Below, piece after piece: positions 36,951-55,073 of a stretch of 64,000 nt of DNA. Position numbers and translations under genes: made by a program. Each line of letters starts with the position of its first letter. Within the stretch, counting starts at the first letter, position 1. The notes below the pieces were generated by a model. The model was not told the origin of the DNA. It saw nothing but the letters and a program-made list of their open reading frames with translations, and made no database searches. The stretch is from Balneolaceae bacterium (GTDB lineage: Bacteria > Bacteroidota > Rhodothermia > Balneolales > Balneolaceae): NCBI GenBank assembly GCA_006969905.1, contig CP030887.1, positions 3,150,730 through 3,214,729 of the forward strand, given 5' to 3'.

Positions 36951-39833
36951 TTATTTAATCAACATCATCTTTTGAATCTTAACTGAACTTCCGGATACCA
37001 ATCGATATAAGTAAACACCCGAAGCAAGGTTAGCAGCATCAAAAGTAACGGTGTGTGATCCCGAAGGCTTTAACTCGTTAACTAACGTAGCAACTTTTTG
37101 ACCTTGAATATTGAATACATCCAACGTAACCAAACCACTTTGAGGAATACTGTAAGAAATATTTGTGGTTGGATTAAATGGATTCGGATAGTTTTGCTCA
37201 AGAGCAAAACGACTGGGACCCTCACTTGGTTCTTCTACACTTATAGGCAAGCCTTTATAGAGGTATATATTATCTACATATACGATGTCTAAGTTTGATG
37301 TAATTAAGAACTGAGCGATATCATCTCTTGTTTGAGGTGCATTCGTCCAATCTGAAATAGGCACATCAACAGATACCCATTTTCCTGATTCAACTGCAGG
37401 AGTAGTACCTGTGTTCAATGGTAATTCGAAAGCTGAAACTTCACCAGTTGTTCCACCCCACTGAGAGAACTTTAAGTTGAATACTTTACCTACCAGATCC
37501 GACTCTGCTGTCCAAAAATCCATATGGAAATGAGTCATAGCAGAAGCATCCTGCTTATCGTTCTGGAAATCGATTCCAACAAAGTTTGTGAAATCAATTT
37601 TTAGTAAGGAATCACCTTCAACAGAAGTTTCAGTAACATCGGAGTCGTCAAAGCTTGCTGAATAAGCATCTACTGTGATATTTGTATATGCATTACTGTA
37701 GATAGAAATTACATCTTCAGCATTTCTTGTTGGAGGAGTTGGAGCTGCAACCATTGGAGCGGGATCTTCATTTCCACCTCCACCTCCGTTGTCACCGATT
37801 TTTACTTTCAGTGAAACATTATCGATTACAACGACACCTGTAGCTGCTCCCATGTCGAATAATACACGACTTGTAGCATCACCAAAATCATTTCCGGTCC
37901 CATCGTCTTTTGCAACTAACTCGAGCGTAAATCTTTGATTTGTATCAGTTAGATCTACTACTTTTGTTGCCGCATAAAAAGGAGCTGCACTTTGTCCAAT
38001 ACCTGCAACCATAGTACGGGTATTCCCCGAACCTGTAGAAGCATCGAAACTAAGTACGTATGTTTCGCCCGGAGCTAACGCTACCGTTTGGCTAATATTA
38101 ACTGCAAAAGCATCACCAGCTGTTGCTACATCTGCAAAGTTATAACTGTTTCCACCTTCAGTACGGATATCAACAGCGTTTCCTGTCCAAGAACCATCAT
38201 TTCCTAATTCAAAATCACCATTGGTTAATAGTTCAGGAACAGAGTCAGGTTTTACTATTAACGAAACATTATCGATTACAACGACACCTGTAGCTGCTCC
38301 CATGTCGAATAATACACGACTTGTAGCATCACCAAAATCATTTCCGGTCCCATCGTCTTTTGCAACTAACTCGAGCGTAAATCTTTGATTTGTATCAGTT
38401 AGATCTACTACTTTTGTTGCCGCATAAAAAGGAGCTGCACTTTGTCCAATACCTGCAACCATAGTACGGGTATTCCCCGAACCTGTAGAAGCATCGAAAC
38501 TAAGTACGTATGTTTCGCCCGGAGCTAACGCTACCGTTTGGCTAATATTAACTGCAAAAGCATCACCAGCTGTTGCTACATCCGCAAAGTTATAGCTATT
38601 TCCGCCTTCAGTACGGATATCAACCGCATTTCCTGTCCAAGAACCATCATTTCCTAATTCAAAATCACCGTTAGTCAGCAATTCCTGACCCGGTTGAGGT
38701 CCACCGCCGCCGCCATCTCCGGTAGGTACTAATACTTTAAGATCATCGATAAGAATAGTTCCACCTTGATCTACTGCTGCACCAGCTGCTACGTTGAATT
38801 GAATCTTCATCGCATTTGCTTGGTCAGAAATGCCCATATGATCGAACATGAATACTTTAAACTCAGAATCACTCAATTCCGGATTTAGAGATGCCACATT
38901 AACAACATTTCCACCAATATCAGTAAGAGCTGATAAATTTGTACCCGTTAAGCCTTCTGACTTAATAGATACCATTACTTTTGCATCAGTAGCTCCACCA
39001 AAATCAATTCCGGTAAATACTTTTTCAACAATATAAGCTCTTCCGCCTGCTCCATCAGCATTAGTTCCACCAAATCTCATAGCTCCAGTACCATCTATAC
39101 CTGCCGTAGCAGCGTGTTCAAAAGTAACTTCAGAAGGTTTAGAAGCAGCGTCACCAGCTTGTGTCCAACCATCTACAGAAGTAGCAGCGTCAAAGTTTTC
39201 AGAAAAAACTTGAGTGCCTTCAACCGATCCACCACCACCGCCGGAACCTGTTCCGTCGTTGTAAAAATAGATATTGTCTACATATACTTTTTTGAGTGTT
39301 CCTGAAGAAGCTAAAATGATTTGATAAATTTTATCTCTCGCATCACTACCACCACCTGCAATGGCAAAATCAGAAAGTGGCACATCTAAAGAAACCCAAT
39401 CTTTAGCAGTAGTAACAGGATTTGTTAATTCAACTGCACTTGTCTCTCCTGGAGTACCGGGAAGGTTTGCATGGTTTGATAGTTTTACATTGTACACTTC
39501 TCCAGCACTTAAATCATCAGCAACCCAATAATCCATATGGAAGTGAGTAAACCCTGATAAATCAATTTCTGTATCAAGTTGAATACCGTTAAAATTGACG
39601 ATATTCATTATTTTTGCAGTGTTTCCATCAATTACTGTATCAGTAGCTGTTGAACCTTCACTCCAATCAGTTGCGAAAGTTGTTACATTTATATCAGTAA
39701 ACGCACCGCTAAATAATGAAATGACATCATTTGCATCAATTGTAGGAGGTGCAGGTGCAGCCGTAGTTGGGGCTTGTGCATATCCTGCTACTGTAAAAAG
39801 CGCAAGAAATACTGTTAAAATTATTTTTTTCAT
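36951..39833 (-). CDS. T9SS-sorted multi-CBM glycan-binding protein
   Basis: A 960-residue secreted protein. After a signal (1-20), a domain of about 170 residues (25-195, ending YVDNIYFYNDG) is followed by a jelly-roll domain (210-370). Two almost identical CBM4/9-like modules of 150 residues come next (GDFELGNDGSWTGNAVDI), then a second copy of the first domain type (about 715-865). It ends with a T9SS sorting domain containing ALEQNYPNPFNP. No catalytic motif was found, so binding of laminarin at the surface is the likely job. The same first-domain type ends the lipoprotein at 50481-51893. It is the last gene of the glucan operon. Confidence 0.87.
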   Translation of the reverse strand: MKKIILTVFLALFTVAGYAQAPTTAAPAPPTIDANDVISLFSGAFTDINVTTFATDWSEGSTATDTVIDGNTAKIMNIVNFNGIQLDTEIDLSGFTHFHMDYWVADDLSAGEVYNVKLSNHANLPGTPGETSAVELTNPVTTAKDWVSLDVPLSDFAIAGGGSDARDKIYQIILASSGTLKKVYVDNIYFYNDGTGSGGGGGSVEGTQVFSENFDAATSVDGWTQAGDAASKPSEVTFEHAATAGIDGTGAMRFGGTNADGAGGRAYIVEKVFTGIDFGGATDAKVMVSIKSEGLTGTNLSALTDIGGNVVNVASLNPELSDSEFKVFMFDHMGISDQANAMKIQFNVAAGAAVDQGGTILIDDLKVLVPTGDGGGGGPQPGQELLTNGDFELGNDGSWTGNAVDIRTEGGNSYNFADVATAGDAFAVNISQTVALAPGETYVLSFDASTGSGNTRTMVAGIGQSAAPFYAATKVVDLTDTNQRFTLELVAKDDGTGNDFGDATSRVLFDMGAATGVVVIDNVSLIVKPDSVPELLTNGDFELGNDGSWTGNAVDIRTEGGNSYNFADVATAGDAFAVNISQTVALAPGETYVLSFDASTGSGNTRTMVAGIGQSAAPFYAATKVVDLTDTNQRFTLELVAKDDGTGNDFGDATSRVLFDMGAATGVVVIDNVSLKVKIGDNGGGGGNEDPAPMVAAPTPPTRNAEDVISIYSNAYTNITVDAYSASFDDSDVTETSVEGDSLLKIDFTNFVGIDFQNDKQDASAMTHFHMDFWTAESDLVGKVFNLKFSQWGGTTGEVSAFELPLNTGTTPAVESGKWVSVDVPISDWTNAPQTRDDIAQFLITSNLDIVYVDNIYLYKGLPISVEEPSEGPSRFALEQNYPNPFNPTTNISYSIPQSGLVTLDVFNIQGQKVATLVNELKPSGSHTVTFDAANLASGVYLYRLVSGSSVKIQKMMLIK
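37813..38582. repeat. intragenic tandem duplication, 450-bp period
   Basis: Bases 37813-38132 and 38263-38582 are identical over 320 bases at a spacing of exactly 450 bases (150 codons). The rest of each unit differs by scattered, mostly silent changes. The unit encodes one CBM4/9-like module. The sharp change from identity to divergence suggests recent duplication or gene conversion. Confidence 0.95.
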
Positions 39834-39908: not shown

Positions 39909-40829
39909 TTAAACACTTACGACCAGTTTTGGGGTTCTATCTGTTCTGTAAAGGCCCCAATGTTTTTCAGGCTCCATAGGTTCAGGGGAACCTTTCCATG
40001 CCTCATCAAATGCTTCAAAGTAAAAGGTGAGTATGTTCTCTTCCGTCACCCATTTAAGAAGCTTTTCGAAATATATTTTTTGATAGTGCTCGCTCACATT
40101 TGCAGGATCAATCCCTTTCCCGTTTGAATGGGTAGTCCAGCCTGCTTCTGTGATAACAACCGGTTTATCCGGGTATTTTTCGGCTACTGAATAGTAATTT
40201 TCCTTTGTGTAATCCAGCGCCTCATCAATATTTTTGTATTCCCAAACCGGGTATGTATGGATAGAAATAAAGTCTACGGCTTCAGCAAGCTTGCTAAGCT
40301 TAGAAAGCCATGGTTCGTAATTTTCACAAAATGTAACCGGCTGCTTCGCCTCACTTTTTACCTGGTTAACATACTCCAGCACTTTGTCTTCATGTACATA
40401 ATGGTCTGTCCAGTCTACACAGGCTTCATTACCGACAGAAAGCCATGAAATGATATCAGGATACCTGTTGCCAAACTCGATGAGCTTATAAATCTTTTCC
40501 TGGTTCACATAGGCATTTCTATCAAGCTCCTGTCTGGAATATATTCCGCCTCCCCACGGGCAGTTGAAGTTGTTCATTTCAGCTTCTATATATGCACCAA
40601 GCATTATCCTGAAATCCAACTGCTCATTACGTATCACATCCAGTACAACTTCAGCGTGTTCATCACAGTCAAACAAACGCAGGTACTTCCAGTCGTTCTG
40701 CAGGATGAGCAGATCTTCTTTCACCTGTTCGTAAGTAGGAATACCTGCCCCGGGGCGCTGCCCGTCTCTGAAACCCGAATAACAAATTGCCTGTCCGGGA
40801 TCTATACTAAATGCTTCAAAAGTATCCAT
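39909..40829 (-). CDS. cytosolic GH17-type beta-1,3-glucan hydrolase
   Basis: A 306-residue protein with no signal peptide. GH17 clan-A features are acid/base Glu135 in SVGNEACVDW, nucleophile Glu228 in VVITEAGWT, and the FISIHTYPVWE strand. Bacterial GH17 enzymes act on beta-1,3-glucan or laminarin oligosaccharides as hydrolases or transglycosylases. The frame is open to 40859, but the ATG at 40829 overlaps the upstream gene's TGA by one base (TGATG), so that start is chosen. It is similar to the two other GH17-type proteins in the operon. Confidence 0.87.
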   Translation of the reverse strand: MDTFEAFSIDPGQAICYSGFRDGQRPGAGIPTYEQVKEDLLILQNDWKYLRLFDCDEHAEVVLDVIRNEQLDFRIMLGAYIEAEMNNFNCPWGGGIYSRQELDRNAYVNQEKIYKLIEFGNRYPDIISWLSVGNEACVDWTDHYVHEDKVLEYVNQVKSEAKQPVTFCENYEPWLSKLSKLAEAVDFISIHTYPVWEYKNIDEALDYTKENYYSVAEKYPDKPVVITEAGWTTHSNGKGIDPANVSEHYQKIYFEKLLKWVTEENILTFYFEAFDEAWKGSPEPMEPEKHWGLYRTDRTPKLVVSV

Positions 40830-41737
40830 CAAAATTTCAGCTTTTCCTTTTTGTCCCAAATTCCCCAGTATGCGCCTACCTCTCCTTCAGCTCCTACTTT
40901 CCAGGATTCATCAAAAGACGAGAAATAGAAGATTTCTATTTCTTCATCCTGAGACCAAAGATTGGTGTTTATGAAGTACTTCATGGCATTATCCTTGGAA
41001 GGCTCTGCACCTCCTAAACTCTCACCCTGGCTCGGCCAACCGGTTTCAGTAATAATCACTCTTTTTCCTTCTCCGGCAACGGAACCTGCCTGATGGAACA
41101 TTTGCCTCATGTGCTGGAAAGAATCCCTGAAGTGTGTTCCTTCCCAATAAGGGTAGCAGTTACATAGAATAACATCGCATAGCTCCGTAATGTCTGCATG
41201 TACCACAAATTCGTAGTATGCATCAACATAGCCTACAGGGATATCCGGCAGTTCCTGCTTTACATACCGGATGTATTCCAACAGTTCTTCTTTCGATAAA
41301 TCATTCCGGTAAAGAACTTCGTTGCCAACTGCGGCAATGTCTACATGACCCGCTTTTGCCAACTCAATGAGCTTTGCAATTTCTTCGTCGTTTTTTTCTT
41401 TTTCGCTCCCCAACCATGCACCCACTAAGGTATTAATGCCCATTTCTTTGGCTACTACCGGGATAAGTTCATTTCCTTCTGTACAGGAAAAAGATCGCAC
41501 CCACTGCATATAGGGTTTAAGGATCTGCATCCTTCTTTCAATTTGATCCCTCGATATAATATCTCCGGGTGATTGCCCATCTTCATACAGGCTAAAACAA
41601 AATCCATGAATACCATTATTGAGTACCTCATGGAACAATATCCGGATTTCCTCTTCCGACATATCGTCCATGTAGCTCAGCTTGGTAATCAGTTCTGAGT
41701 GTTCAAAATTGAGAAATTTCTCTTTTCTAAATGACAT
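40829..41737 (-). CDS. cytosolic GH17-type beta-1,3-glucan hydrolase
   Basis: A 302-residue protein without a signal peptide. Acid/base Glu140 is in AVGNEVLYR and nucleophile Glu231 is in IITETGWPS, the classic GH17 pair. Strand ends GAWLGSE and LCNCYPYWEG are also typical. It diverges clearly from its downstream neighbour, so the two probably differ in chain length or action (hydrolysis or transglycosylation). It is translationally coupled to the neighbour and follows the transporter gene, which suits action on imported oligosaccharides. Confidence 0.88.
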   Translation of the reverse strand: MSFRKEKFLNFEHSELITKLSYMDDMSEEEIRILFHEVLNNGIHGFCFSLYEDGQSPGDIISRDQIERRMQILKPYMQWVRSFSCTEGNELIPVVAKEMGINTLVGAWLGSEKEKNDEEIAKLIELAKAGHVDIAAVGNEVLYRNDLSKEELLEYIRYVKQELPDIPVGYVDAYYEFVVHADITELCDVILCNCYPYWEGTHFRDSFQHMRQMFHQAGSVAGEGKRVIITETGWPSQGESLGGAEPSKDNAMKYFINTNLWSQDEEIEIFYFSSFDESWKVGAEGEVGAYWGIWDKKEKLKF

Positions 41738-41766: not shown

Positions 41767-43197
41767 TTATAGTTCTCCACGCCTTGCAACCAATTCTGCC
41801 TTGATTTTACGTGCCTTTTCTTCTGTTAAATCATAACTGAACATTACCCAAATGGCCAAAGCTGCCGTTATAGCGGGAATCGCTATATCCGCAATTCTTA
41901 ATTGGGTAAGAGTTTCTGTAGTTTGTACTGCCGCATTTTGATCGAAACCAACAAGCTTTAAAACCAATCCGCCAAGTACCAATGCAATGGCCTGGCCCAG
42001 CTTAACCATCCACCAGTAGATAGCGCCAAAGGTGCCTTCTTTTCTTGGCATTCCATTATTCAATTCATCCAGGTCGCAAACATCGGCAGTCATGCTCATC
42101 ATAAGGGTAAACAGTCCACCTAATCCAAAAGCCATGAACGGAATAGGCATAAATAGTAACCATGGATTTTCCGGGCTGAACCCCCACCATTTAAGGATGT
42201 ATCCAACAATTGAAATAGAGGTTGAAATGATAAAAGCTTTCCGTTTACCTACCTTATTAGAAATCCATGTAATGATCGGGATTACCATGAAGGCGGTTGC
42301 TACTGCGGTAATTGTTGAAAACCATGCAGGCCAATTGCCTGCAGCATCGTAGCTTCCCTTGAACATATAGAACACTATGATAAAATAGCTGAAAGAAGCT
42401 ACCAGTTGAAACCCGTTAAATACTAAGAATGTAGCCCCGCAAAGCTTCATAAACGGCTTGTTCTTGGATACCTCCACTATACCTTTAATCAGGTCTTTAA
42501 GATTGGAAAACATGGATTTAAAGTTTATTTCCTTTCTGTTTTCCATGTTCGAAGAATCCAGGCCCCTGCAAAATATGGCAGGTAGTAAACCCAAAACTAT
42601 ACATATACCACCTACAAAAAAGGAAAGCTGCCTTACACCTAGTGCCTGCGATTCAAATAAATCAGGGTTAGCGATAATGACCCAGAACCACGGAACAATC
42701 ATCCATGCAAATTGACCTAAAGTTTGCGAGAACCCCATGAGCCGTGTACGCTCGTTATAGTCGGTGGTCATTTCATAACCTAAACCTATAAGCGGAGTGG
42801 CAAACATGGTGTTACCTACCAGAAATACCATTGACATAATGAGGAAATACCAAAAATTGTACATCTGGGGATTGTTCTCATCCATTTGCCACAGAAGGAT
42901 GAAGAAAATCCCACTCAGAATTGCTCCAATAAATATGTATGGCCTTCTTCGTCCCCAGTTTGATCTTGTATTGTCGGAGATGAATCCCATAATAGGATCT
43001 GTTATGGCATCAAAAATCCTGGGTAAACCACCTAGTAAACCTGCCAGGAAAGGGTCCATCCCAAAAGCAGTAAGCAAAAAGAACATAAAAATACCCAGGG
43101 CTCCCGGTAACAGGTTTAATACAAAATGACCCGAACCAAATGAGACTTTCTGTAAAAAGGGTACCCTGTCTTTTGCTGGTGTTTCGTATGTTGACAT
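41767..43197 (-). CDS. MFS sugar transporter, GPH/SLC45-like
   Basis: A 476-residue carrier with about 12 membrane helices. GPH-family marks are DAITDPIMGFISDNTRSNWGRRRPYI after helix 2 and PEGTFGAIYWWMVKLGQ-like sequence before the last helices, here PRKEGTFGAIYWWMVK. The family moves glycosides with H+ or Na+. In this operon it is the only inner-membrane transporter and is expected to import laminari-oligosaccharides for the cytosolic GH17 enzymes and phosphorylase. Confidence 0.9.
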   Translation of the reverse strand: MSTYETPAKDRVPFLQKVSFGSGHFVLNLLPGALGIFMFFLLTAFGMDPFLAGLLGGLPRIFDAITDPIMGFISDNTRSNWGRRRPYIFIGAILSGIFFILLWQMDENNPQMYNFWYFLIMSMVFLVGNTMFATPLIGLGYEMTTDYNERTRLMGFSQTLGQFAWMIVPWFWVIIANPDLFESQALGVRQLSFFVGGICIVLGLLPAIFCRGLDSSNMENRKEINFKSMFSNLKDLIKGIVEVSKNKPFMKLCGATFLVFNGFQLVASFSYFIIVFYMFKGSYDAAGNWPAWFSTITAVATAFMVIPIITWISNKVGKRKAFIISTSISIVGYILKWWGFSPENPWLLFMPIPFMAFGLGGLFTLMMSMTADVCDLDELNNGMPRKEGTFGAIYWWMVKLGQAIALVLGGLVLKLVGFDQNAAVQTTETLTQLRIADIAIPAITAALAIWVMFSYDLTEEKARKIKAELVARRGEL

Positions 43198-43232: not shown

Positions 43233-44723
43233 TTAACCTCCCGGCGTAATTACTATGGTTTGAATGGCCTTTCCATCTATGGCTATATATCTGTTTTCGC
43301 CATTCAGCTGCAGTTGCATTCCCCTGGGCTCTTCACTTTGGTTTAAAACAACTACGGCTATGCTTTCATCCGGATTTTGAACTGCAGTTACTAGAAGTCC
43401 TTCAGCGGACTGGCTGTGACCAATCCTCACAGCTCCGGGCCTTATATACCTGCTGAAATGTGCCATGGTGTAATAAAGTGGTGTGAAGTATACTTCATCA
43501 TTTTCAGGGTCAACTATAACCGGTGCCAGGCACCAGTTTTTTGCCCAATTAGGTCCGCCCTGACGATCCAGCACCATGTTCCAGTCTATCCAGCCATCTA
43601 CCCAATTATTTAGCGTACCGATCATATCACGTGCATATCTATATACCGGCACATATTTGGGGTGAAGGTATTTTCTTTCCTCAGGAGCCCAATCCCAGCC
43701 CCAATCGGTTGCTTCTTTCGACCAGTACCAGGCATCATCTTTCCAAACGGGAACCTCAGCATCGGCTGTTGCTTCTGTTTGTATGAGGTGCTTATCCGGA
43801 GCTGCTTTCTTTGCATATCGAAGCGCTTCTGGGAATACATCATAAGTACTCCCATACCAATGTACTGCTGTTCCATCGTAGTACCTGGCAGCTTCCTCAT
43901 CACCATACATCGCATCCACCCACTCAATCAATTCATGATCCCTGTTCTGGTCATAACCCAGGATTTTTATATCATGGCCATCCTTCTCCAGTTGAGGGCC
44001 CAGGTGGTTCTTAACAAACTCATTCATTTCTTCGGGGGTAAAGTGCATGCTTTCCCAGTTGCTGTCGTTACCCAAAGGCTCATTTTCGACTGTGATACCC
44101 CAAACTTCGATACCTTCTTGTTTGTAGGCATCCAGGTATTTGGAGAAGAAAAGTGCCCATGTATCATAATATTCGGGGAGCAACTTGCCTCCCTTCCAAT
44201 CCTTGTTGTCTTTCATCCAGGGTGGAGCTGTCCACGGAGATGAGATAATTTTGAAACCATCCTTAGATACCGCCATCGCATCTTTAATCATTGGGATCAG
44301 GTCATCTCTGTCCTCATCAATTGAAAAATTACTGAGTGTTAAATCTCTTTCCGGTGCATAGGAGTAGTTACCTAGTGAAAAGTCGCTTGAATTGATATGG
44401 GTTCTTGTTAGCGAATACCTTGCTCCCGATTCTCCGAAATAGGCTTCAATAATTTTATCCCTGTTCTCTTTGCTAACCTGGTTCAGTAAATAGGCAGAGG
44501 CCTCTGTGAAAGAACCTCCAAATCCTGTGATCTCCTGGTATCTTTCATCAGGATTAATACTAATCTCAACAACTTGATCAACCTCCGGGAAGCTTTCCAA
44601 TTTGGATAACTGGTTCCCTTTTGCAGAAGTCTCATATACTTCAATATCAAATTTATCTGCACTGTTACAACTTACTGCGGCCATTATGATGAAAAGAAGG
44701 ATATAGTGAGAGGTTAACTTCAT
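43233..44723 (-). CDS. GH30 glucosidase lipoprotein
   Basis: A 496-residue lipoprotein (lipobox AVSC, Cys19). The TIM barrel has acid/base Glu215 in TVENEP and nucleophile Glu317 in LIQTEAT, with ITGFGGSFTEASA and SPWTAPPWM segments typical of GH30. A C-terminal beta-sandwich follows (about 415-496). GH30 of laminarin loci cleave beta-1,6 side branches or beta-1,3/1,6 glucosyl links; that specificity is inferred from context. It lies eight bases after the GH17-type lipoprotein. Confidence 0.9.
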   Translation of the reverse strand: MKLTSHYILLFIIMAAVSCNSADKFDIEVYETSAKGNQLSKLESFPEVDQVVEISINPDERYQEITGFGGSFTEASAYLLNQVSKENRDKIIEAYFGESGARYSLTRTHINSSDFSLGNYSYAPERDLTLSNFSIDEDRDDLIPMIKDAMAVSKDGFKIISSPWTAPPWMKDNKDWKGGKLLPEYYDTWALFFSKYLDAYKQEGIEVWGITVENEPLGNDSNWESMHFTPEEMNEFVKNHLGPQLEKDGHDIKILGYDQNRDHELIEWVDAMYGDEEAARYYDGTAVHWYGSTYDVFPEALRYAKKAAPDKHLIQTEATADAEVPVWKDDAWYWSKEATDWGWDWAPEERKYLHPKYVPVYRYARDMIGTLNNWVDGWIDWNMVLDRQGGPNWAKNWCLAPVIVDPENDEVYFTPLYYTMAHFSRYIRPGAVRIGHSQSAEGLLVTAVQNPDESIAVVVLNQSEEPRGMQLQLNGENRYIAIDGKAIQTIVITPGG

Positions 44724-44731
44724 GGATTATC

Positions 44732-46036
44732 TCAGTTACTATGCGCCGCCTGGATTTCTTCTTCAGTAGGCGGTACCAGTACAGTTTTCATAAGCTCATC
44801 CAGGTCTCCGTCAAAAGTTTTGGTGATAGGCTTGCCGTCTCGTGTCAAGCCCTCAAACACTCCTGCATCTACCATATCCCAAAGCGGATATTTTGCCTGT
44901 GACTGTAAATTGATCAAGCCAAAATGATTTTCAGATCCAAGTTGGTTAGCAGCATCTTTCCATTTCTCATCAAATGCCTCGAAATAGAATACAGACACAT
45001 TATTTTCATCGGACCACTCACGGATTAACTCATGGAAGCGTCCCATTTTAAACTCATCCGTTGCCCGCGATCCATCCGGCCCGTAATATCCATTTGAAAT
45101 GGTTGCCCAGCCTGTTTCACCAATGTGTACGGGTTTGTCGACACCCAGGCTTTTCATATAATCAACCACACTTTGGTATTGCGAAACAGAATACTCCAAT
45201 GAGCGCTGGAGTGCGGCTTCTATCTTTTCTTCATTAGAAAGGCCTTCTTCCTCTTCAGGAACACCCCAGAAAACCGGGTTATAATGAGTATCATGCATTG
45301 GGTAAGTGTGCATGGAAATAAAATCAACCGCTTTGATTAATTCATTAAGGTCTTCCTTGTGATATTCGGTTCCACCCCCTCCCCAGGAAGCAAAGTTATC
45401 AGAGCTGGTAATCCATAGTGTTTCAGGCAGCTTGCCATCCTTTTTTAAGCCCTGCAGGTGGTTCACCCATCTCAGAATAATGCCCGGCTCTACCCAATAC
45501 TCTGTTTGCCAATGAACCATTGCTTCGTTACCAACTGCAATAATTTTTACGATATCGGGATATTTATTTGCTAATGCAGCAGCCCTGTCTATCTCGCCTG
45601 CATTTCTAGGACTGTCTTCATCACGAATTCTTTCTGGTTCATCCGTCCATGCATTCTTTGCGTCAATCCATGCACCCAGCATTACATACATTTCAAAATC
45701 AGGATCTTCTTCTTTCAATTCCCGGATGGCTTTCAGAAGCCGGGGTACAGCATCCAAATAAACATTGTATGTTCTTATCAGTTTAATACCCATCGCCTCC
45801 AGTATGAGCATGTCTTCCTTTAACTCAGCCACAGTAGGCACTATATCTCTTGTTATTTCGCGATACCCGCTGTACGAAATTGCCTGGTACTCAGGATTTC
45901 CTAAAATTTCCTCAGCAGTTATGTTAGTTGAACTCATACTTTTTTTAGATTGATTAGAACAAGCGATTAATAATCCGGTAGCTAATACAGCTGTCAAAAA
46001 AATGGTGGTTTTGATTCTATGTGTGGATTTTTTCAT
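44732..46036 (-). CDS. GH17-type lipoprotein
   Basis: A 434-residue lipoprotein (lipobox LIAC, Cys26), so it faces the periplasm or cell surface. Acid/base Glu171 in AVGNEAMVHW and nucleophile Glu307 in HIGETGW match GH17. The frame is open to 46084, but the ATG at 46036 starts directly at the signal sequence and is used here. It is the largest of the three GH17-type proteins, with an extra segment after the FISMHTYPMHD strand. It probably trims glucan before import. Confidence 0.87.
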   Translation of the reverse strand: MKKSTHRIKTTIFLTAVLATGLLIACSNQSKKSMSSTNITAEEILGNPEYQAISYSGYREITRDIVPTVAELKEDMLILEAMGIKLIRTYNVYLDAVPRLLKAIRELKEEDPDFEMYVMLGAWIDAKNAWTDEPERIRDEDSPRNAGEIDRAAALANKYPDIVKIIAVGNEAMVHWQTEYWVEPGIILRWVNHLQGLKKDGKLPETLWITSSDNFASWGGGGTEYHKEDLNELIKAVDFISMHTYPMHDTHYNPVFWGVPEEEEGLSNEEKIEAALQRSLEYSVSQYQSVVDYMKSLGVDKPVHIGETGWATISNGYYGPDGSRATDEFKMGRFHELIREWSDENNVSVFYFEAFDEKWKDAANQLGSENHFGLINLQSQAKYPLWDMVDAGVFEGLTRDGKPITKTFDGDLDELMKTVLVPPTEEEIQAAHSN

Positions 46037-46052
46037 TTGTTCGGTCTTTTTT

Positions 46053-49000
46053 TTATCTGAGATATTTATCCCGTAGGGATACACTTATTCGTTGTATTTG
46101 CCCGGACCTGGAGAATATTTTCCCCGAAGTTTCCGCATCAACTTTTAGCCCGTTTAGCTGACGGGTACTTCCATCTGTAAATTTGATATTGATGCCGTCC
46201 TCTTCAGCTGTTGTATATGAAACCGGAACCTGGCAGTATGTGAAAGCAATTGAGCCTTCTTCTAAATCCATATTTTGTGTTTCAGCGGCAAGCGTTTTAT
46301 AACTGAAGACTTCTTCGCTGTTTAAAAACTCGCCCGACTTAAGCAGGAAAGGTTTAAAGCAAAGTTGTCCTTCATTAACCTCTAATCCCAATTCCCCAAA
46401 GCGTACAAGGACATCCTCTTTTACCTGCCCGGTCATGCCTGGCTGCTGAGCACCCCGATGTTGCGGAGTGTGAGAGTATGCATCAGTTGGGAATGCCCCG
46501 TAAAGCCCGGGAGATTTGTGAACTCCAATTCCCTCAGCAATTTCATCAAAATGTTGGGCTAGCGAAGAGAAATTCTTTTCATCTGCCCCTTCATCACTGG
46601 CTTTCTTGCAAACTTCATAAACAGCGAGATAAAGCTTGGAAACCATGTGCCAGTAAATTGATCCCAATCCCTCATAACCAAAGAAAGTGCCCGACCTGCC
46701 GGTAAAAGCCTTGTGATTGAAAACTTCTTCAAAAATCCGGAGAACCAGCTTCTCTTCTTTTTCAACCAATTCAGCATAGCCCGTTTCTTTCAATCCATCC
46801 AGGGCTGTATTTAAATCAACAGCATTCTTGAAATTCCCATTAAAGTGGTAGCCGCCTTTTACATCCCTGATAATAATGCTGAAATTTTGATCATCAATTA
46901 GCTTCTTCAGAAGTATCGATTCCTGGACACTTTCTTCAGGGATATTATTTCGCTCTAAAAACCCGGCCAAATCTTTATTTGGATAAAGCAGGTAGCTTTG
47001 CTGGTCTTCGCGATAAAGAGCACTGCTTTTCAGGGCATCTAAAAGAGCCACTGCCTCCTGTGTGTTTAAGTAGCCTGAGCTAAGGGCAGCAACCTGGCCC
47101 TCCAGCATCTCATCCAGGTAGGAAATGGAAATACCGCTATCATCCAGGCTCATCAGGTTATAGGCATGGTACAGTTTGTCATCCCTCTTGTTAGCACGGA
47201 TGGAATGTTCCATGTAAGTAAGCGCCATTTCAATGAGTGATGAAATATCAGACGTTTTTAACCCTTGTGATTCGCCACTAAAACCTGAATCGTAGACTTT
47301 TTCCCTGTATGTACTACCTGCAATTCCAAGTCCTTCAGTTACCCGCTTCCTGTCCGCATCGTTGATATCGGCGTCCAGCAGTGATTGGTTCTCCGCTAAT
47401 ACTTCGCTAATGGCATAGAATAACTCTGCGACTTCTTTCGATACGGTAACCTCGTCCAGTTCTGTTTTTGAAACTATTGGCTCAAAAAATTTCAAAAACC
47501 TTCTCAGATAGTAAAGTGTAACCATCGAAACACCATTACCCACTAACGCATTGTTTGCATCATTCCACTCTGGCCGCTGAGTATTCATCCATATTCCGGC
47601 TTCAGGTATAAAATTTGAAACCTTCGCCAAAAGGGTTACCAGAATTTTTTCAATGAAATTTACATGATGAATTTCTTCTTTTTTGCTTGAAAGCAGCGCG
47701 CCATCTGCACCTTTTTCATCTACCTGGTCTCTTATTCGCCGATCCGACTCTTCATCAAAATCAATGGTGTTTTTCGGGTCTTTGGCAATATCTTCGTATT
47801 TCTTTATCCGGTACGGTACATTTGCGTAAACGAATAACTCTTTACTGAAAAGCCGCTCCAGTTCTCCCGGTTTATGGTTATGGTAAAATTCCAGGAATTT
47901 CAGCAGGTAAATAATCTGATGATCTCCCCAGTAACCAATATATGACCATGGGTCATCGGGTTCTATAATTTCCCAATCAAACCCGCCTTTGGTTACCCTG
48001 TAAGGATTATAGCCATCAAAAGTAGTAGCATTCAGGAACTTGAAGATCATACCCTCCATAAACTCAGGATAGGAATGAGCCAGGGCTTCCCAGTTTTGGA
48101 AGATATCGCGCCAGTTGCCTTCGTAATCTAAGATCTTTGACCCGTCAACTTCACTCCGTGTATTAATAGAAAATTTGTTCCAGGGCCGGCTTGGATCACC
48201 ATGCCTTCTGCTGAATTTTAAGGGCAGGTATTCTTTGGATAACCTGAGTAAATCCGGATCTTCCGTTTTTGATAACAGCTCATCTAATTCCGGTTTATCA
48301 AACTGATCACTTAGTTCTTTAAAAAATGCTTCATTGTTGTTGAATAAACTATTGTTGGCATTTCTTATGTATCGGGCAAAATCTTTTTTGTCGATGTTGT
48401 AGTTATCATCAAAAATCCCTCCCCTCATGATATTGAACAATACATTTGAGAAGTGACGGCTGTCTCCGAGGGAATCACGCGTTTTTTGAAGGCCATCGGA
48501 AGCAGCAACTAATGCAATCAACTTATCAGTGCCAACAGAGATATCATCTTTTACCTGCTTTTCTAAATCTGCATTGTGCTTAATGGACTCATTTAACCTG
48601 ATAACTTCCGCATGATTCAGGTTTACATTGGCAACTATAATCCATTTTTTTTCTGAGCCGGATTCTAATTGCAATGAAGCCTCTACAAAGTAAGCCCCCT
48701 TTTCTCCCTTTATGTCTTCTTCCTGATTGGTTTCTTTTCTTTTTCTGAAATTCTCCAGCTGTTGAGAGGAAAGCAGGTATTTTGGATTTTCCAATCCCAT
48801 CGACCAAACTACATTTGTCTTTAAGGCTTCACTCGGCTCTGCTTTATCAACAATAATGGCACTTAAAGCGAAAACGCCTAATCCGGTATCGGCTACCAAT
48901 TCACTTCTTTTGTAAGCATCAACCAGGTTACTTGCCCTGGTCTGTAAATCACTGCTCACGCCATACGGCATAACGTTTTGGATACCATCCAGTACTGTTA

Positions 49001-49502
49001 CCTCGACAGTTTGATCAGAATGGTTAGATAACGAGGCCGTTTTTATAAAACCGAACTCATCACTTGAACTCCACTGGTAATAAAAAGTTAAGCCAAGATC
49101 ATGGTTTACTTCCTCGAACCGGACTTTATCACCAAATTTATTCTTGTAAAGGTTCCTGGTAAATTCAAATCGCTCACAATCAACTGTTGAGAAGGGTTCC
49201 CAGATTAATTCCCTGCTATCCTGTTTAATGCGGACTATCGTTTTGCTACCTGTAGTATGGTTTAGTTCGTGAAGCTTATCAACCGTATAGTAAGGGAACA
49301 GTGAGTATTCAGGATTTTTTCTGCCGGCAGTTAATCCCCCGTTACTTGATATGAACATCCAGTGATCAGAATCACTTACAACGCTCATCAAAAATGGCCG
49401 GATGGAATCGAAACCAGAAATACGATAGAACTTCTCTCCGTCAATGGTTACCGATTGCAATGTAGATGCTTTGTTTTCTGATATTGAAGAGGTGCCTGAC
49501 AC
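46053..49502 (-). CDS. beta-1,3-glucan phosphorylase, GH149/GH94-type
   Basis: A 1149-residue cytosolic protein without a signal peptide. An N-terminal beta-sandwich with ISSNGGLTAGRKNPEYSLFPYY precedes a long alpha/alpha barrel. The catalytic Asp648 is in PEWNDANNALVGNG, the motif of disaccharide and oligosaccharide phosphorylases; HHVNFIEKI and SYTHTPQHRGAQQPG are further barrel landmarks. The length is far above GH94 cellobiose phosphorylases (about 800) and fits GH149, whose members phosphorolyse beta-1,3-oligoglucans to glucose-1-phosphate. It saves one ATP per bond compared with hydrolysis. The choice of GH149 over GH94 is from length and context. Confidence 0.85.
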   Translation of the reverse strand: MSGTSSISENKASTLQSVTIDGEKFYRISGFDSIRPFLMSVVSDSDHWMFISSNGGLTAGRKNPEYSLFPYYTVDKLHELNHTTGSKTIVRIKQDSRELIWEPFSTVDCERFEFTRNLYKNKFGDKVRFEEVNHDLGLTFYYQWSSSDEFGFIKTASLSNHSDQTVEVTVLDGIQNVMPYGVSSDLQTRASNLVDAYKRSELVADTGLGVFALSAIIVDKAEPSEALKTNVVWSMGLENPKYLLSSQQLENFRKRKETNQEEDIKGEKGAYFVEASLQLESGSEKKWIIVANVNLNHAEVIRLNESIKHNADLEKQVKDDISVGTDKLIALVAASDGLQKTRDSLGDSRHFSNVLFNIMRGGIFDDNYNIDKKDFARYIRNANNSLFNNNEAFFKELSDQFDKPELDELLSKTEDPDLLRLSKEYLPLKFSRRHGDPSRPWNKFSINTRSEVDGSKILDYEGNWRDIFQNWEALAHSYPEFMEGMIFKFLNATTFDGYNPYRVTKGGFDWEIIEPDDPWSYIGYWGDHQIIYLLKFLEFYHNHKPGELERLFSKELFVYANVPYRIKKYEDIAKDPKNTIDFDEESDRRIRDQVDEKGADGALLSSKKEEIHHVNFIEKILVTLLAKVSNFIPEAGIWMNTQRPEWNDANNALVGNGVSMVTLYYLRRFLKFFEPIVSKTELDEVTVSKEVAELFYAISEVLAENQSLLDADINDADRKRVTEGLGIAGSTYREKVYDSGFSGESQGLKTSDISSLIEMALTYMEHSIRANKRDDKLYHAYNLMSLDDSGISISYLDEMLEGQVAALSSGYLNTQEAVALLDALKSSALYREDQQSYLLYPNKDLAGFLERNNIPEESVQESILLKKLIDDQNFSIIIRDVKGGYHFNGNFKNAVDLNTALDGLKETGYAELVEKEEKLVLRIFEEVFNHKAFTGRSGTFFGYEGLGSIYWHMVSKLYLAVYEVCKKASDEGADEKNFSSLAQHFDEIAEGIGVHKSPGLYGAFPTDAYSHTPQHRGAQQPGMTGQVKEDVLVRFGELGLEVNEGQLCFKPFLLKSGEFLNSEEVFSYKTLAAETQNMDLEEGSIAFTYCQVPVSYTTAEEDGINIKFTDGSTRQLNGLKVDAETSGKIFSRSGQIQRISVSLRDKYLR

Positions 49503-49563: not shown

Positions 49564-50394
49564 TTACTCCGGTGCATAAACCCGGATATAATCAACCAGC
49601 ATGGTTTGCGGAAATGGAGTATTGCTATTGGGTGGCCCTACGAATGTTCCACCTACAGCCACATTTAGTATGATGTAAAAGGTATTGTCATTGAAAACCC
49701 ATTCACCGTTTACATCATCCGGGGTGATCTCGTTATACATCACATCATCCACGAAATATTTGATGGAATTTGGGCTCCACTCAATGGCAAATACATAAAA
49801 CCCGGTATCAAACCTGGCATTTGTTAATTCATACCTGTCCGTAACTGCCTGGCCTGCAGAGTAGCCGGGGCCATGCACACTGCCATGGATAATGGTAGGC
49901 TCCTGCCCCCTGTATTCCATAATGTCTATTTCACCAATTTGCGGCCAGATAACGGTACCTTCTGAATCGTCTCCCAACAACCAGAAAGCCGGCCAGATGC
50001 CTTGCCCGAATGGAAGCTGAATGCTGGCTTCATATCGCCCATAGGTTCGTTCAAATATGCCCTTAGTTAGAATTCTGGCAGATGTATAGTCAGAGCCTTC
50101 AAATGATTCCTGGCGGGCAGTTATCTCCAGCATACCATCTTTCACCCTTATGTTTTCAGCCCGATCTGTATAGTATTGCTGCTCATTGTTGCCCCAGCCG
50201 GGAAGCCCGATTTCCTCACCGGTACCTATATCAAAAATCCATTTTTCACTATCTGGGGCTCCATCTGTATTGAATTCATCCTGCCAGACTAACTTTGTAA
50301 ATGGATTGTCCGGTTCAGAATTATCAGTGGTACAACTTGATATGAATAACACTAAGGTTACCAGGGTTACTATTCCAAAAAAATGCTTTCTCAT
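49564..50394 (-). CDS. GH16 laminarinase lipoprotein
   Basis: A 276-residue lipoprotein (lipobox SSC, Cys21). The GH16 active-site motif is GEIDIMEY: Glu155 nucleophile, Asp157, Glu160 acid/base. LVWQDEFN at the start, YGRYEASIQLP and WPAFWLLG before the motif, and the terminal VDYIRVY strand are typical of endo-beta-1,3-glucanases (GH16_3). It should cut laminarin at the cell surface or in the periplasm. It sits between the binding lipoprotein and the phosphorylase genes. Confidence 0.93.
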   Translation of the reverse strand: MRKHFFGIVTLVTLVLFISSCTTDNSEPDNPFTKLVWQDEFNTDGAPDSEKWIFDIGTGEEIGLPGWGNNEQQYYTDRAENIRVKDGMLEITARQESFEGSDYTSARILTKGIFERTYGRYEASIQLPFGQGIWPAFWLLGDDSEGTVIWPQIGEIDIMEYRGQEPTIIHGSVHGPGYSAGQAVTDRYELTNARFDTGFYVFAIEWSPNSIKYFVDDVMYNEITPDDVNGEWVFNDNTFYIILNVAVGGTFVGPPNSNTPFPQTMLVDYIRVYAPE

Positions 50395-50480: not shown

Positions 50481-51893
50481 TTAGTTCTTATAGAAGTAAA
50501 TATTGTCTACATAAATATTTGAAATTGTGTTGTCGGAGATAAAGAATAGCAGCCCAATCTCTGAACGATCATTCAGCCCTGTAAAGCTTGAAAGAGGTAT
50601 ATCCAAACCTACCGACCATTGCCCTTCCGGTAACACATTGCTGTTAAGCGTATAGCTTCCTGACGTTTCCCCATTACCAACAGAATTTAACAGCTGAAGC
50701 CGGATAAAATCGCCCGGATCAACCGGTTCATTTACAAAAATATCCACATGCAGGTGGGTCATCTCGGTTGCATCAATTGGGGATACATTTTGAAACATCC
50801 CAATACCAACAAAATTCAACTGTGTATAATTGATGATTCTGTTACCGTTTACGTTCACATCTCCTCCACCTTCGCCTGTACCGCCGAGCGTGGTTTGTCC
50901 ATCACCATTGAAGAATCCATTGTAATAATCAACTGGAACATTGGTATATCCATCACTGAATATTGAGATTACGTTGCCGGCATCTCTGGTAGGGGTTGGT
51001 GCAAGATTTACTGAAGTAACATTAATAGAACCTTCTGCATTGACGTCACCCAACTGTGCGGTAATGGTAGAACTACCTTCGCCAACAATCGTAACTCCAT
51101 TTTCATCAATGTTAGCAACAGATGTATTTGTTGAGTTAAATGTAAAGTAGTTAGTTGATGCATTAACGGTTACATCCCCCCTTTCAACTGTGTTAACAGT
51201 AACTCCAACTCCATTAAAGTTTAAATTCTGCCCAACAAATACTGCGCCGGTATCATCACGGGCATCATTAATAAATGGCCTTAATTGCGCGATAGTTGAT
51301 AGATTCTCAAACTTTAATTCGTCAATCCAAAATGTATATCCATCATTATTTTCAGGGCCTTCTGCAAACCAGAACATTCCTGATTCCTGGGTAAGTCTTG
51401 AAGCATCCGGAAATGGAATGATGAACTTCTCCCATCCTGTGGAAATACGAAGATTACTTATACTCACCTGGAATTCATTGCCTTCAAAATCCTGACCGAA
51501 ACCTATTTCATTAATTGTAGCAGCTTTAGTAGCCTTTGCATAAAATGTGAGTGCATTATAACCCGTAAGATCTCTTCCTCCATTAAGGTCTTTGAAAATT
51601 GCACCAGCGTATGCTCCTCCCGGGTCTCCAAAGTTTGGAACATCGAATCGCATTGAGGCACTGCTATTATCAAATGTAGTTTGATTATCTACTGAAAAAG
51701 CAGTCTGCTTTGAATCTGCAAATGGTAAATATTCCAGGCCGGAGCTAAACCCGTCAATAAAGACGTTTGGGCTTTGTGTAAAACCGGGCTCGCTTAAACC
51801 ATCTACTGAGCGCTCGCATCCAGCTAATATAATTAGTGCAACTAAACCGGCACCTAACAATCGATTCATGTTATTCAAATAAAAATTTTTCAT
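50481..51893 (-). CDS. surface glycan-binding lipoprotein
   Basis: A 470-residue lipoprotein (lipobox LAGC, Cys26). Residues 45-200 form a carbohydrate-binding-like jelly roll (SSASMRFDVPNFG, LTFYAKATKAATI, FWIDELKFENL). A bacterial Ig-like Big2 segment follows (about 225-295). The C-terminal module (about 300-470, ending IYVDNIYFYKN) matches the two outer modules of the T9SS CBM protein in this operon. No catalytic residues were seen. It occupies the place that SusE/SusF-like binding proteins hold in other loci, but it lacks their sequence. A second start nine codons in (51869) is possible. Confidence 0.78.
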   Translation of the reverse strand: MKNFYLNNMNRLLGAGLVALIILAGCERSVDGLSEPGFTQSPNVFIDGFSSGLEYLPFADSKQTAFSVDNQTTFDNSSASMRFDVPNFGDPGGAYAGAIFKDLNGGRDLTGYNALTFYAKATKAATINEIGFGQDFEGNEFQVSISNLRISTGWEKFIIPFPDASRLTQESGMFWFAEGPENNDGYTFWIDELKFENLSTIAQLRPFINDARDDTGAVFVGQNLNFNGVGVTVNTVERGDVTVNASTNYFTFNSTNTSVANIDENGVTIVGEGSSTITAQLGDVNAEGSINVTSVNLAPTPTRDAGNVISIFSDGYTNVPVDYYNGFFNGDGQTTLGGTGEGGGDVNVNGNRIINYTQLNFVGIGMFQNVSPIDATEMTHLHVDIFVNEPVDPGDFIRLQLLNSVGNGETSGSYTLNSNVLPEGQWSVGLDIPLSSFTGLNDRSEIGLLFFISDNTISNIYVDNIYFYKN

Positions 51894-51911: not shown

Positions 51912-54900
51912 TTAGTTTCTGATATCGATTTGAATGTATGTTCTGATTTCCCATTCAGAACCGTTACCTAATCTTGCAGCTTCCGGCAATTCCTGAATCT
52001 CACCGGTATTCTGGTTTACTTCTACCAATGAATACCTGGGAGAATATTTATCCAATGTTCTGTATGTGCCCCTGATCCCTAACCGGGTGGTTGGCATATC
52101 AAACCAGTCGGGTTTCCCCAGGGTGGTGGAAATATCTGCCATTAACTGAACGGGATAGGTTTGGTTAAAATCACGGTGGTAATCAAATGGCCCCCAGTCA
52201 TTGAACCTTGCAAAAGAATTCAATTTTATGTTCTTGTAAATCATTCTCAGGTCAGTACCAAAACGGGTGATCTTTCTTGGGTCGTTACCATTAGCCTGAC
52301 CTTCACCGCCATATACCACGGCTACAAAGCCTAAGTCACGATTTATTTTAGAAACAATACGTGCATTAACTTCAATTAAATCCTCAGCCGGAGCAGAGCC
52401 GTTAAAGGCGAATGTAGTCCTTCCATCCGGGAAAATACCTATAGCCGCATCCTGTATAGTCGGCAAATGGCGGTATACAATACCTAAACTGATCGCCAGC
52501 TGTGCATCTTCTGACCGGTCACTATCCCAGTTGTACATCCAGGTTCCCGGAGTTGGATCAAAGGTAAGCATAAGCTCACCAGCCACTTGTTCACGGTTAG
52601 CACGAACTGCAAATGGATCGTCAATTATGTTTCTGGGACGTGCCGGAGCTCCGATATCGGCAGGGATCGGTCCTTCAATTGGCTTTTGCCATAAGAAGTT
52701 AGGAGCGATTTGAAGATTTCCGACAGTGTAAGTTAAACCTGAGAGGAAGTTATATTGGTTACCACTGCCACTGTCTTTTAGTCTCCAGCCTGTATAGGTA
52801 ATTGTTTGGTCGGCACCGCCATTAGCTACCAGTCCCATAACTGAACCTTGCGCATACCAATTAAACAAGCCACCCGTGTACGTAAGTTTTAGCTTACCAC
52901 CCCAGTTATCTGAGGGCTTGATCTCATCTTCATATACATCATAGCTTCCATCCTCACGTTCTCTTACTAATTGAAATTCACGACCGTTTAATGGTTGGCC
53001 TGCCCAAAGTCCTCCGGCATGTATTCCGAATTTTCCAAGTTCTCTTTCAGCAAAAACACTCAGTCTCCTGGTTTTTGGCTGGGGAATTGCAAATGAACTC
53101 TCGGTAGTTCCCTGTTGCTCCAAATCCTCATGAAAAATACTCGTCACCTCGGTTGCTCCAAATTTTTTGGTGTACTTGAGAAGAACAGCCGGGTTTGCCC
53201 CCCACCATAGTTCAGGGCCAAAAGCAGCTTTAAAGCCATCGAATTGCTTACGACCTTCTACTTCGAAACCAAAAGGAGCAGTACCGTTATAGATATCAAT
53301 GTTTGGGCCATAGTTAGCTTCAGGGTAAAGGCCAAAGAAGTCACCTTCGTATCCCCAATGGTAGTGTCCTGTTCTGTAAAAACCTTCCAAGGCAAAATAT
53401 TTACTGGTCCAGGAGTATTCTGCACTATAGATTGCAACCCTGTTAACAGAATTAAGGGTCACATTTTCGTGAACACCTTTAAGTTCAACCGGGCGCCCAC
53501 GGTTTTCGTAAAAAATTTCATCAATGGGATTCCCGGGTACGCTTCCAAGAATGTTCGTAACAATATTTGCCCGAATATTCGGAGCCGGATTAGCTTCTAC
53601 ACCGATGAAGAAGGATTCTAAATGATCGAAGCCTAATTGATTTGGATACTCATTCGTTTTTGGGTCAGCTTCTTCAGGGGTGGTAATCAGGTCACCACCG
53701 GTACTGTAGGTTCTGAAATCTGCAGTAAACTGGCTTAGCTTAATAATATCTGCAGATAAACCTGCCAAAGCTGCCTTATCACCTCGTGCTTTAAGTGCAG
53801 CTTCTTCAATACTGATGCCATCAAAAAATTGATTCAGATCATTAAGTGATGCTTTCTCATCGTATACATCATATCTATGTGCTTCTTGAAGTACGTAATA
53901 AGCAGCACGCGGGAAAAGTTCATAGTAACCAAGTGGATTAGTAGGCCCTTTGGCTGTGATACCGAACCACTCTTCGTTCATATTATTCTCTCCTTCCGCA
54001 AAATCATACTGATAACCACCGTTTGGCCACGATGCGTTAATGTCATGGACATCCAGGTTCTCAGTTTGGCCGTATTTCCACCATCCGTCACTAAACTGGA
54101 ATGTAAATCCACCGATTGAGTTGCTTGCTCTTCCCATACCGGCAGCATTAGAATAAATATCTTTCCAATTATTCTTCTTGTAAAAAGCCTGTGCTGATTG
54201 CGCTTCCGTTAGAGTTCTGGCATTAAATGCATCCACCCCAAATTCAGTTAATAGTACCGGCTTGTCATATTCTTTTGAGACAACGTCGAATAAATCAGTG
54301 AATGTCTCACCACGATAGGTGTTAACACCAAAAATGTCTACGTCAGGTGCCAAATCAACAATATGCTCAAGAAAAAGAACATCACCATTACACAGAGCAA
54401 CAGGCCGGGATGGGTCTATAGCCTTCATTGCTATGGCTGCATCATTCATAAGTTTATACATCGGTCTTCCACGATTTTGACCTATAAAAGCTTTCTCAGC
54501 AGCATCATCAGGGAAAGCTTCCGTTTCGGCTCCGGCCCAGAAGAGCCCGTAATTATTCTCGTTACCAAGCAGATAGAGGAGTAGCCCTTTTGTACCTGCG
54601 TACTCATTAGCCATTGCAGTAACTTCATCCAGAAGTAGTTCCATCGTTCTGGGATCATCATACTCGGTAACAGGTACCCAGGCACCATCTATAGTTAATC
54701 CATAGCGCCCGAATGAATGATTGAGCATCGTATAAATACCATAGTTCTCATAAATATATGTAATCCATTCTGGCTGAATTCCAGAGTAAACACGAATGGC
54801 ATTTACCCCCATATTTTGGAGCAAACCCATTTCATAATCGAGTGCATTTTTGATGAATTCAGGAGATTGGTTCCAAAGGCTGTACGAATAATTTGTACCT

Positions 54901-55073
54901 CTCGGGAAGTAATCCCAGTTCATACCATTTACCATAAAGGGCTTTCCATCAACTAACAATTTCCAGCCTTCTTCAGATTTATTAACAACCACTTTTTCGG
55001 ATTGTGCTATAACCGACCCCGTTAGTACTAGCAGAAATGTTGCCGATAATAGAAGTGCTTTTTTTATATCCAT
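51912..55073 (-). CDS. clan GH-A glycosidase fused to a putative outer-membrane beta-barrel
   Basis: A 1053-residue protein with a signal peptide (1-23, VIAQ). Residues 30-430 form a TIM-barrel glycosidase domain of clan GH-A (GKPFMVNGMNWD, MGVNAIRVYSG). Acid/base Glu172 is in LLGNENNYG and nucleophile Glu277 in LLTEFGVDA. It resembles GH2-C/GH72/GH5-like domains, but I cannot assign the family. Residues of about 485-1053 are alternating strands (LGIVYRHLP, VNARIVSK, RFGTDLRMIYKN, TRLGIRGTYRTLD) ending RTYIQIDIRN, as in a 14-18-strand outer-membrane barrel. No plug or TonB box was found. It is the first gene of the operon, before the binding lipoprotein. Confidence 0.75.
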   Translation of the reverse strand: MDIKKALLLSATFLLVLTGSVIAQSEKVVVNKSEEGWKLLVDGKPFMVNGMNWDYFPRGTNYSYSLWNQSPEFIKNALDYEMGLLQNMGVNAIRVYSGIQPEWITYIYENYGIYTMLNHSFGRYGLTIDGAWVPVTEYDDPRTMELLLDEVTAMANEYAGTKGLLLYLLGNENNYGLFWAGAETEAFPDDAAEKAFIGQNRGRPMYKLMNDAAIAMKAIDPSRPVALCNGDVLFLEHIVDLAPDVDIFGVNTYRGETFTDLFDVVSKEYDKPVLLTEFGVDAFNARTLTEAQSAQAFYKKNNWKDIYSNAAGMGRASNSIGGFTFQFSDGWWKYGQTENLDVHDINASWPNGGYQYDFAEGENNMNEEWFGITAKGPTNPLGYYELFPRAAYYVLQEAHRYDVYDEKASLNDLNQFFDGISIEEAALKARGDKAALAGLSADIIKLSQFTADFRTYSTGGDLITTPEEADPKTNEYPNQLGFDHLESFFIGVEANPAPNIRANIVTNILGSVPGNPIDEIFYENRGRPVELKGVHENVTLNSVNRVAIYSAEYSWTSKYFALEGFYRTGHYHWGYEGDFFGLYPEANYGPNIDIYNGTAPFGFEVEGRKQFDGFKAAFGPELWWGANPAVLLKYTKKFGATEVTSIFHEDLEQQGTTESSFAIPQPKTRRLSVFAERELGKFGIHAGGLWAGQPLNGREFQLVREREDGSYDVYEDEIKPSDNWGGKLKLTYTGGLFNWYAQGSVMGLVANGGADQTITYTGWRLKDSGSGNQYNFLSGLTYTVGNLQIAPNFLWQKPIEGPIPADIGAPARPRNIIDDPFAVRANREQVAGELMLTFDPTPGTWMYNWDSDRSEDAQLAISLGIVYRHLPTIQDAAIGIFPDGRTTFAFNGSAPAEDLIEVNARIVSKINRDLGFVAVVYGGEGQANGNDPRKITRFGTDLRMIYKNIKLNSFARFNDWGPFDYHRDFNQTYPVQLMADISTTLGKPDWFDMPTTRLGIRGTYRTLDKYSPRYSLVEVNQNTGEIQELPEAARLGNGSEWEIRTYIQIDIRN

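Follow-up and report, generated by a model that had tools for sequence, protein, structure and literature searches.

In the window, that is the whole 64,000-nucleotide stretch of DNA analysed here, a gene with an ATG start codon, present in a single copy in the genome, is the first in a series of genes on the minus strand (Table 1). It encodes a predicted fusion of a glycosidase with an outer-membrane beta-barrel. On the same strand follow, in this order, a lipoprotein, GH16, GH149, GH17, GH30, a GPH symporter, two further GH17 genes, a CBM4_9/T9SS protein and a LuxR-type regulator. The partner lipoprotein does not match the SusD family and has Big- and CBM-type domains instead; its C-terminal domain resembles the CBM4_9 protein encoded further along the run (37% over 178 aa). 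The CBM4_9 protein itself contains two copies of this common domain. The window genome encodes four SusD homologues, none of which lies in the fusion locus.

Table 1. Features of the fusion gene and of the genes that follow it.
Feature	Position	Strand	Basis or remark
GH158-like glycosidase + outer-membrane beta-barrel fusion	51912..55073	(-)	1053 aa; first gene of the operon
Signal peptide, residues 1-24	55002..55073	(-)	Type I by eye (...VIAQ); helix 3-21 in model
GH-A TIM-barrel domain + C-terminal helices, residues 25-437	53763..55001	(-)	Model, profile and Foldseek matches; standalone homologues end ~430
Predicted acid/base Glu172 (GNEN; LLGNEN)	54558..54560	(-)	Invariance, alignment to GH158
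Predicted nucleophile Glu277 (TEFG; LLTEFG)	54243..54245	(-)	Invariance, alignment to GH158
Predicted ~24-strand outer-membrane barrel, residues 444-1053	51915..53744	(-)	AlphaFold2 models, hydropathy, PDB fold matches
Partner lipoprotein	50481..51893	(-)	Cys lipobox LAGC, Big-like domain, CBM-like C-terminal domain
GH16 lipoprotein, probable endo-beta-1,3-glucanase	49564..50394	(-)	Pfam, NCBIfam, synteny
GH149 beta-1,3-glucan phosphorylase	46053..49502	(-)	NCBIfam 1765 bits, cut-off 1150
GH17-like enzyme (GH17a)	44732..46084	(-)	Pfam below cut-off; syntenic homologues
GH30 (beta-1,6-glucan side chains)	43233..44723	(-)	Pfam, NCBIfam
GPH/MFS sugar symporter	41767..43197	(-)	Pfam, NCBIfam
Two tandem GH17-type genes	39909..41737 (40829-41737 + 39909-40859)	(-)	Pfam
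CBM4_9 protein with T9SS tail	36951..39833	(-)	Related to C-terminal domain of partner lipoprotein
LuxR/GerE-type regulator	34078..36771	(-)	

Directly upstream of the fusion and on the same strand lies the gene of a 599-aa protein (55526-57325) that has no match in Pfam or NCBIfam. At 57342-63974, a very long repeat protein is encoded, which appears Calx-beta/cadherin-like by eye, has a T9SS-like C-terminus and may start past the end of the window.

Predicted folds of the two halves

The initial annotation described a glycosidase fused to an outer-membrane barrel, and the reading frame, the catalytic glutamate pair, the strand pattern and the predicted folds all agree with this. N171, E172 and E277 are invariant in 100 of 100 full-length homologues, among which we searched for loss of the glutamate pair, and all three residues are also invariant in six homologues that consist of the enzyme alone. 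Comparing a family profile with solved structures, we found BuGH158 (6PAL, 3e-8) and GH158(Pro) (1.6e-5) to be nearest; the relation is remote, with both catalytic glutamates aligned. BuGH158 and LaGH157 are also the top matches when the full-chain AlphaFold2 model is searched against the PDB with Foldseek. These comparisons support a first half that is a GH-A glycosidase related to the GH158/GH157 laminarinases, with its activity predicted. The fusion shares with BuGH158 the GH-A TIM barrel, the aligned glutamate pair and a laminarin locus. However, BuGH158 is a lipoprotein in its own right and ends in an Ig-like domain (PMC7157763), whereas the C-terminal part of the fusion is a predicted membrane barrel, and the sequence similarity between the two is remote.

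For the second half, AlphaFold2 predicts ~24 long antiparallel strands at residues 444-1053 of the full chain (pLDDT 80) and 24 strands if this half is modelled alone (pLDDT 81, pTM 0.77), where low confidence at ~570-600 and in a few loops means that there could be two strands more or fewer. The amphipathic strands run to the C-terminus as initially annotated, but the barrel starts earlier than the residue ~485 proposed there, with a first strand at 444-461. The hydropathy alternation of the 24 predicted strands is 2.60, whereas 2000 shuffles average 1.48 and do not exceed 2.23. When the second half alone is searched against the PDB, the best 50 matches are all outer-membrane barrels (BtuB, MOMP, ZnuD, PfeA, AlgE, FimD, LptD and others). 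TM-scores to single known barrels are low (~0.2-0.4, mostly ~0.33, and all <0.45 in the listed matches) and none is close; nor does the barrel match a known family in Pfam, NCBIfam or the PDB sequences. Soluble beta-sandwiches are ruled out by both AlphaFold2 models, which show barrel-type strands after residue ~444, and by Foldseek. Pfam finds no plug, carboxypeptidase-like or T9SS domain in the fusion, as the initial annotation had stated for the plug and the T9SS tail, while plug and carboxypeptidase-like domains are present in control SusCs.

In strict alternation, the loops of the barrel are long (7-36 aa) or short (2-6 aa, except for two of 12 and 21); by the usual rule, this suggests that both barrel termini are periplasmic. 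With its many antiparallel amphipathic strands, its alternating loops and the export signal of the chain, an outer-membrane barrel is the supported prediction for the second half. This half of 600 residues is nearly as conserved as the enzyme half. The long loops hold 28 aromatic residues and are conserved like the strands (3.25 and 3.24 bits, respectively). Surface loops seldom show such conservation, and it points to contact with the substrate or to a lid.

Fused and standalone forms among relatives

The 100 full-length homologues align end to end with the window protein at 56-82% identity and thus rule out a chance fusion or an assembly error. Close, full-length relatives are spread across the Bacteroidota, and one occurs in a record titled Melioribacteraceae (Ignavibacteriota). 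A barrel without enzyme was not found among 394 genomes of the phylum, the two pieces that show a barrel only (L149, L150) being truncated at contig ends. Counted in 10-kb flanks with profiles built here from three seeds, the gene after the fusion is the same partner lipoprotein in all 78 relatives with enough sequence, GH16 is the second gene after it in 61/61 loci, and GH149 (51/61), GH17a (48) and GH30 (40) lie within the flank; a relative of the LuxR/GerE-type regulator is found directly upstream in 29 of 62 loci. The position of the fusion at the head of a laminarin locus, another claim of the initial annotation, is borne out by this gene order in the window and in relatives. On the same basis, SusD lies upstream of only two of 59 fusions, so that 57 fused loci are without adjacent SusCD.

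Twelve loci that are closely related (L140-L148, L151-L153) code for the enzyme without the barrel; a further such locus, L154, is cut by a contig end and is not counted among them. Except for L153, which lies in a poor stretch, these enzymes stop at most 8 residues from the end of their match at window residue 422-434. This places the junction at ~435 and assigns the helices before the barrel to the enzyme. In L140, L141, L145 and L147, the standalone enzyme lacks a tail and starts with what looks by eye like a type I signal; judged by sequence, these enzymes are probably periplasmic. Elsewhere (L155:9148-10209), a different GH-A enzyme with 27% identity and no barrel lies between GH17b and GH149, which indicates that this place can be taken by another enzyme.

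Of the nine standalone loci whose flanks are long enough, three contain SusCD, in loci of the type SusC-SusD-GH16-enzyme-GH149, as opposed to SusD in 2/59 fused loci (Fisher p = 0.015, with kinship ignored and the three representing two lineages). Six standalone loci have neither the barrel nor adjacent SusCD, and substitution between the two is therefore not a strict rule. Among 20 genomes compared, the 16 that have only the standalone enzyme contain neither the barrel nor the full-length lipoprotein (in two, just the lipoprotein's C-terminal domain is matched), while the four with the fusion have both. This joint absence suggests that barrel and lipoprotein form one unit, which can part from the enzyme, as expected of an uptake pair. 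In the tree of the enzyme, standalone forms branch within the fused ones, which requires about six changes, at least four of them forced by well-supported branches, and rules out a single origin of the standalone enzyme. The direction of change was probably loss of the barrel, the root of the tree being unsure.

A candidate route for laminarin across the outer membrane

Polysaccharide uptake in marine Flavobacteriia has been described as SusCD-mediated (PMC6298971), and Bacteroidetes laminarin clusters without susCD have been noted in work on GH149 (PMC5827456). A 2026 paper on a Muricauda laminarin cluster reports the same gene order and names the gene in the position of the fusion a GH2 beta-glycosidase (PMC13188888); from the gene order, we take this to be the fusion gene. 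Our literature search, whose coverage leaves out most subscription papers, found nothing on a glycosidase-barrel fusion or TonB-independent laminarin uptake, and no description of an outer-membrane route for SusCD-less Bacteroidota laminarin clusters. The locus is thus already known, while the barrel half and its meaning appear to be new.

On balance, we lean towards the fusion being a channel in the outer membrane that carries a laminarinase on its periplasmic side and that would form a module with the lipoprotein, taking up beta-1,3-glucan (laminarin) independently of SusC/SusD. From the observed sequence, its conservation, the predicted folds, the gene order and the co-inheritance, we infer a pore function, an orientation, a substrate and a ratchet action. 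The partner lipoprotein and the GH16 lipoprotein would hold and cut laminarin at the surface, and the ~24-strand barrel, devoid of a TonB plug, would let glucan chains pass. At the periplasmic mouth of the barrel, the GH158-like domain would cut the emerging chain, and this cutting would make entry one-way. As this domain is joined to the first strand, it would lie on the periplasmic side by usual barrel topology; the standalone forms, which lack a secretion tail and by eye have a type I signal, point to the same location. GH17a, the GPH symporter, GH30, GH17b/c and GH149 may then complete laminarin breakdown and uptake. Cutting and passage in one chain, a role that the initial annotation likewise marked as inferred, would fit the order of the genes, the joint loss of barrel and lipoprotein and the rarity of SusCD. 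Against the channel, a plugless 24-strand barrel would leak unless loops close it. Moreover, SusCD is present in two of the fused loci, and four SusD homologues are encoded elsewhere in the window genome.

Like SusC/SusD importers, the fusion has a predicted outer-membrane barrel, is encoded next to a glycan-binding lipoprotein and stands first in a glycan locus. It differs from them in the absence of plug and carboxypeptidase-like domains, in a partner without SusD match, in the built-in enzyme and in having ~24 rather than 22 strands. Sugar-specific porins such as LamB and the chitoporin ChiP, the latter among the Foldseek matches of the full-chain model, are, as proposed for the fusion, oligosaccharide channels encoded in degradation loci, but they have 16-18 strands, form trimers and lack an enzyme domain. 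The Formosa MFS-GH17 fusion unites a transporter and a laminarin enzyme in one chain, as the present fusion may do, and also occurs in Flavobacteriia laminarin loci; its MFS transporter, however, belongs to the inner membrane and is of unrelated fold (PMC6246565).

Alternatively, the barrel could bring the glycosidase to the surface and anchor it there, as a secretion device instead of an import channel, which we regard as rather unlikely. The order of N-terminal enzyme and C-terminal barrel is indeed that of type Va autotransporters, yet these have a 12-strand barrel with a surface passenger, as opposed to the ~24 strands predicted here. The helices before the first strand exist in the barrel-less standalone enzymes as well and hence belong to the glycosidase fold and not to a pore-crossing linker. 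Surface display would agree with the nearest known enzyme, BuGH158, being a lipoprotein whose locus has binding proteins expected at the surface (PMC7157763). However, it would leave the strict coupling to the partner lipoprotein unexplained, and Bacteroidota already own T9SS and surface lipoproteins, including a T9SS-tailed protein in this same gene run.

The barrel may also be mainly an anchor or docking platform for a periplasmic laminarinase and the lipoprotein, with glucan entering via another transporter. The SusCD of two fused loci and the SusD homologues elsewhere in the window genome would be in line with this, but the 57 fused loci without adjacent SusCD, the conserved, aromatic-rich long loops and the cost of 600 conserved residues, where a lipid anchor would be far cheaper, make it improbable. 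Finally, we give very little credence to an ordinary GH2-type beta-glycosidase with an unimportant C-terminal extension, which is the name used by RefSeq and in the Muricauda paper. Pfam assigns GH2_C alone to the glycosidase half, at 23.6 bits and 2.6 bits above the cut-off; it detects neither the N-terminal sugar-binding nor the Ig-like domains of GH2, and the TIM barrel begins already at residue ~25. The GH158/GH157 relatives among solved structures, the predicted structure and a second half nearly as conserved as the enzyme contradict the GH2 reading.

Extending the preferred reading of a channel with a built-in laminarinase, we tentatively raise the possibility of a further kind of outer-membrane glycan importer in Bacteroidota, a TonB-independent, hydrolysis-driven one-way channel with an obligate surface lipoprotein, which would replace SusCD for laminarin. 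The fusion would also offer a way to test whether cleavage beyond the membrane can drive import. Few marine carbon pools are larger than laminarin, and that many Bacteroidota encode the fusion suggests a so far overlooked way for algal glucan to enter. If the fusion is an uptake route, laminarin use would be undercounted wherever SusC/D serves as its proxy, and the whole group annotated as 'GH2' would need renaming, including the copy in a gut Bacteroides record.

This copy, in a Bacteroides finegoldii record (L171, NZ_OY725931.1), is named 'glycoside hydrolase family 2 TIM barrel-domain containing protein' in RefSeq. It lies in a locus of a SusR-type regulator, the fusion, the lipoprotein, GH16 and bglX, in which no SusCD is annotated. 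The record is titled a plasmid, yet it carries valS (valyl-tRNA ligase) and rpsA (ribosomal protein S1) and may therefore be a mislabelled fragment of the chromosome.
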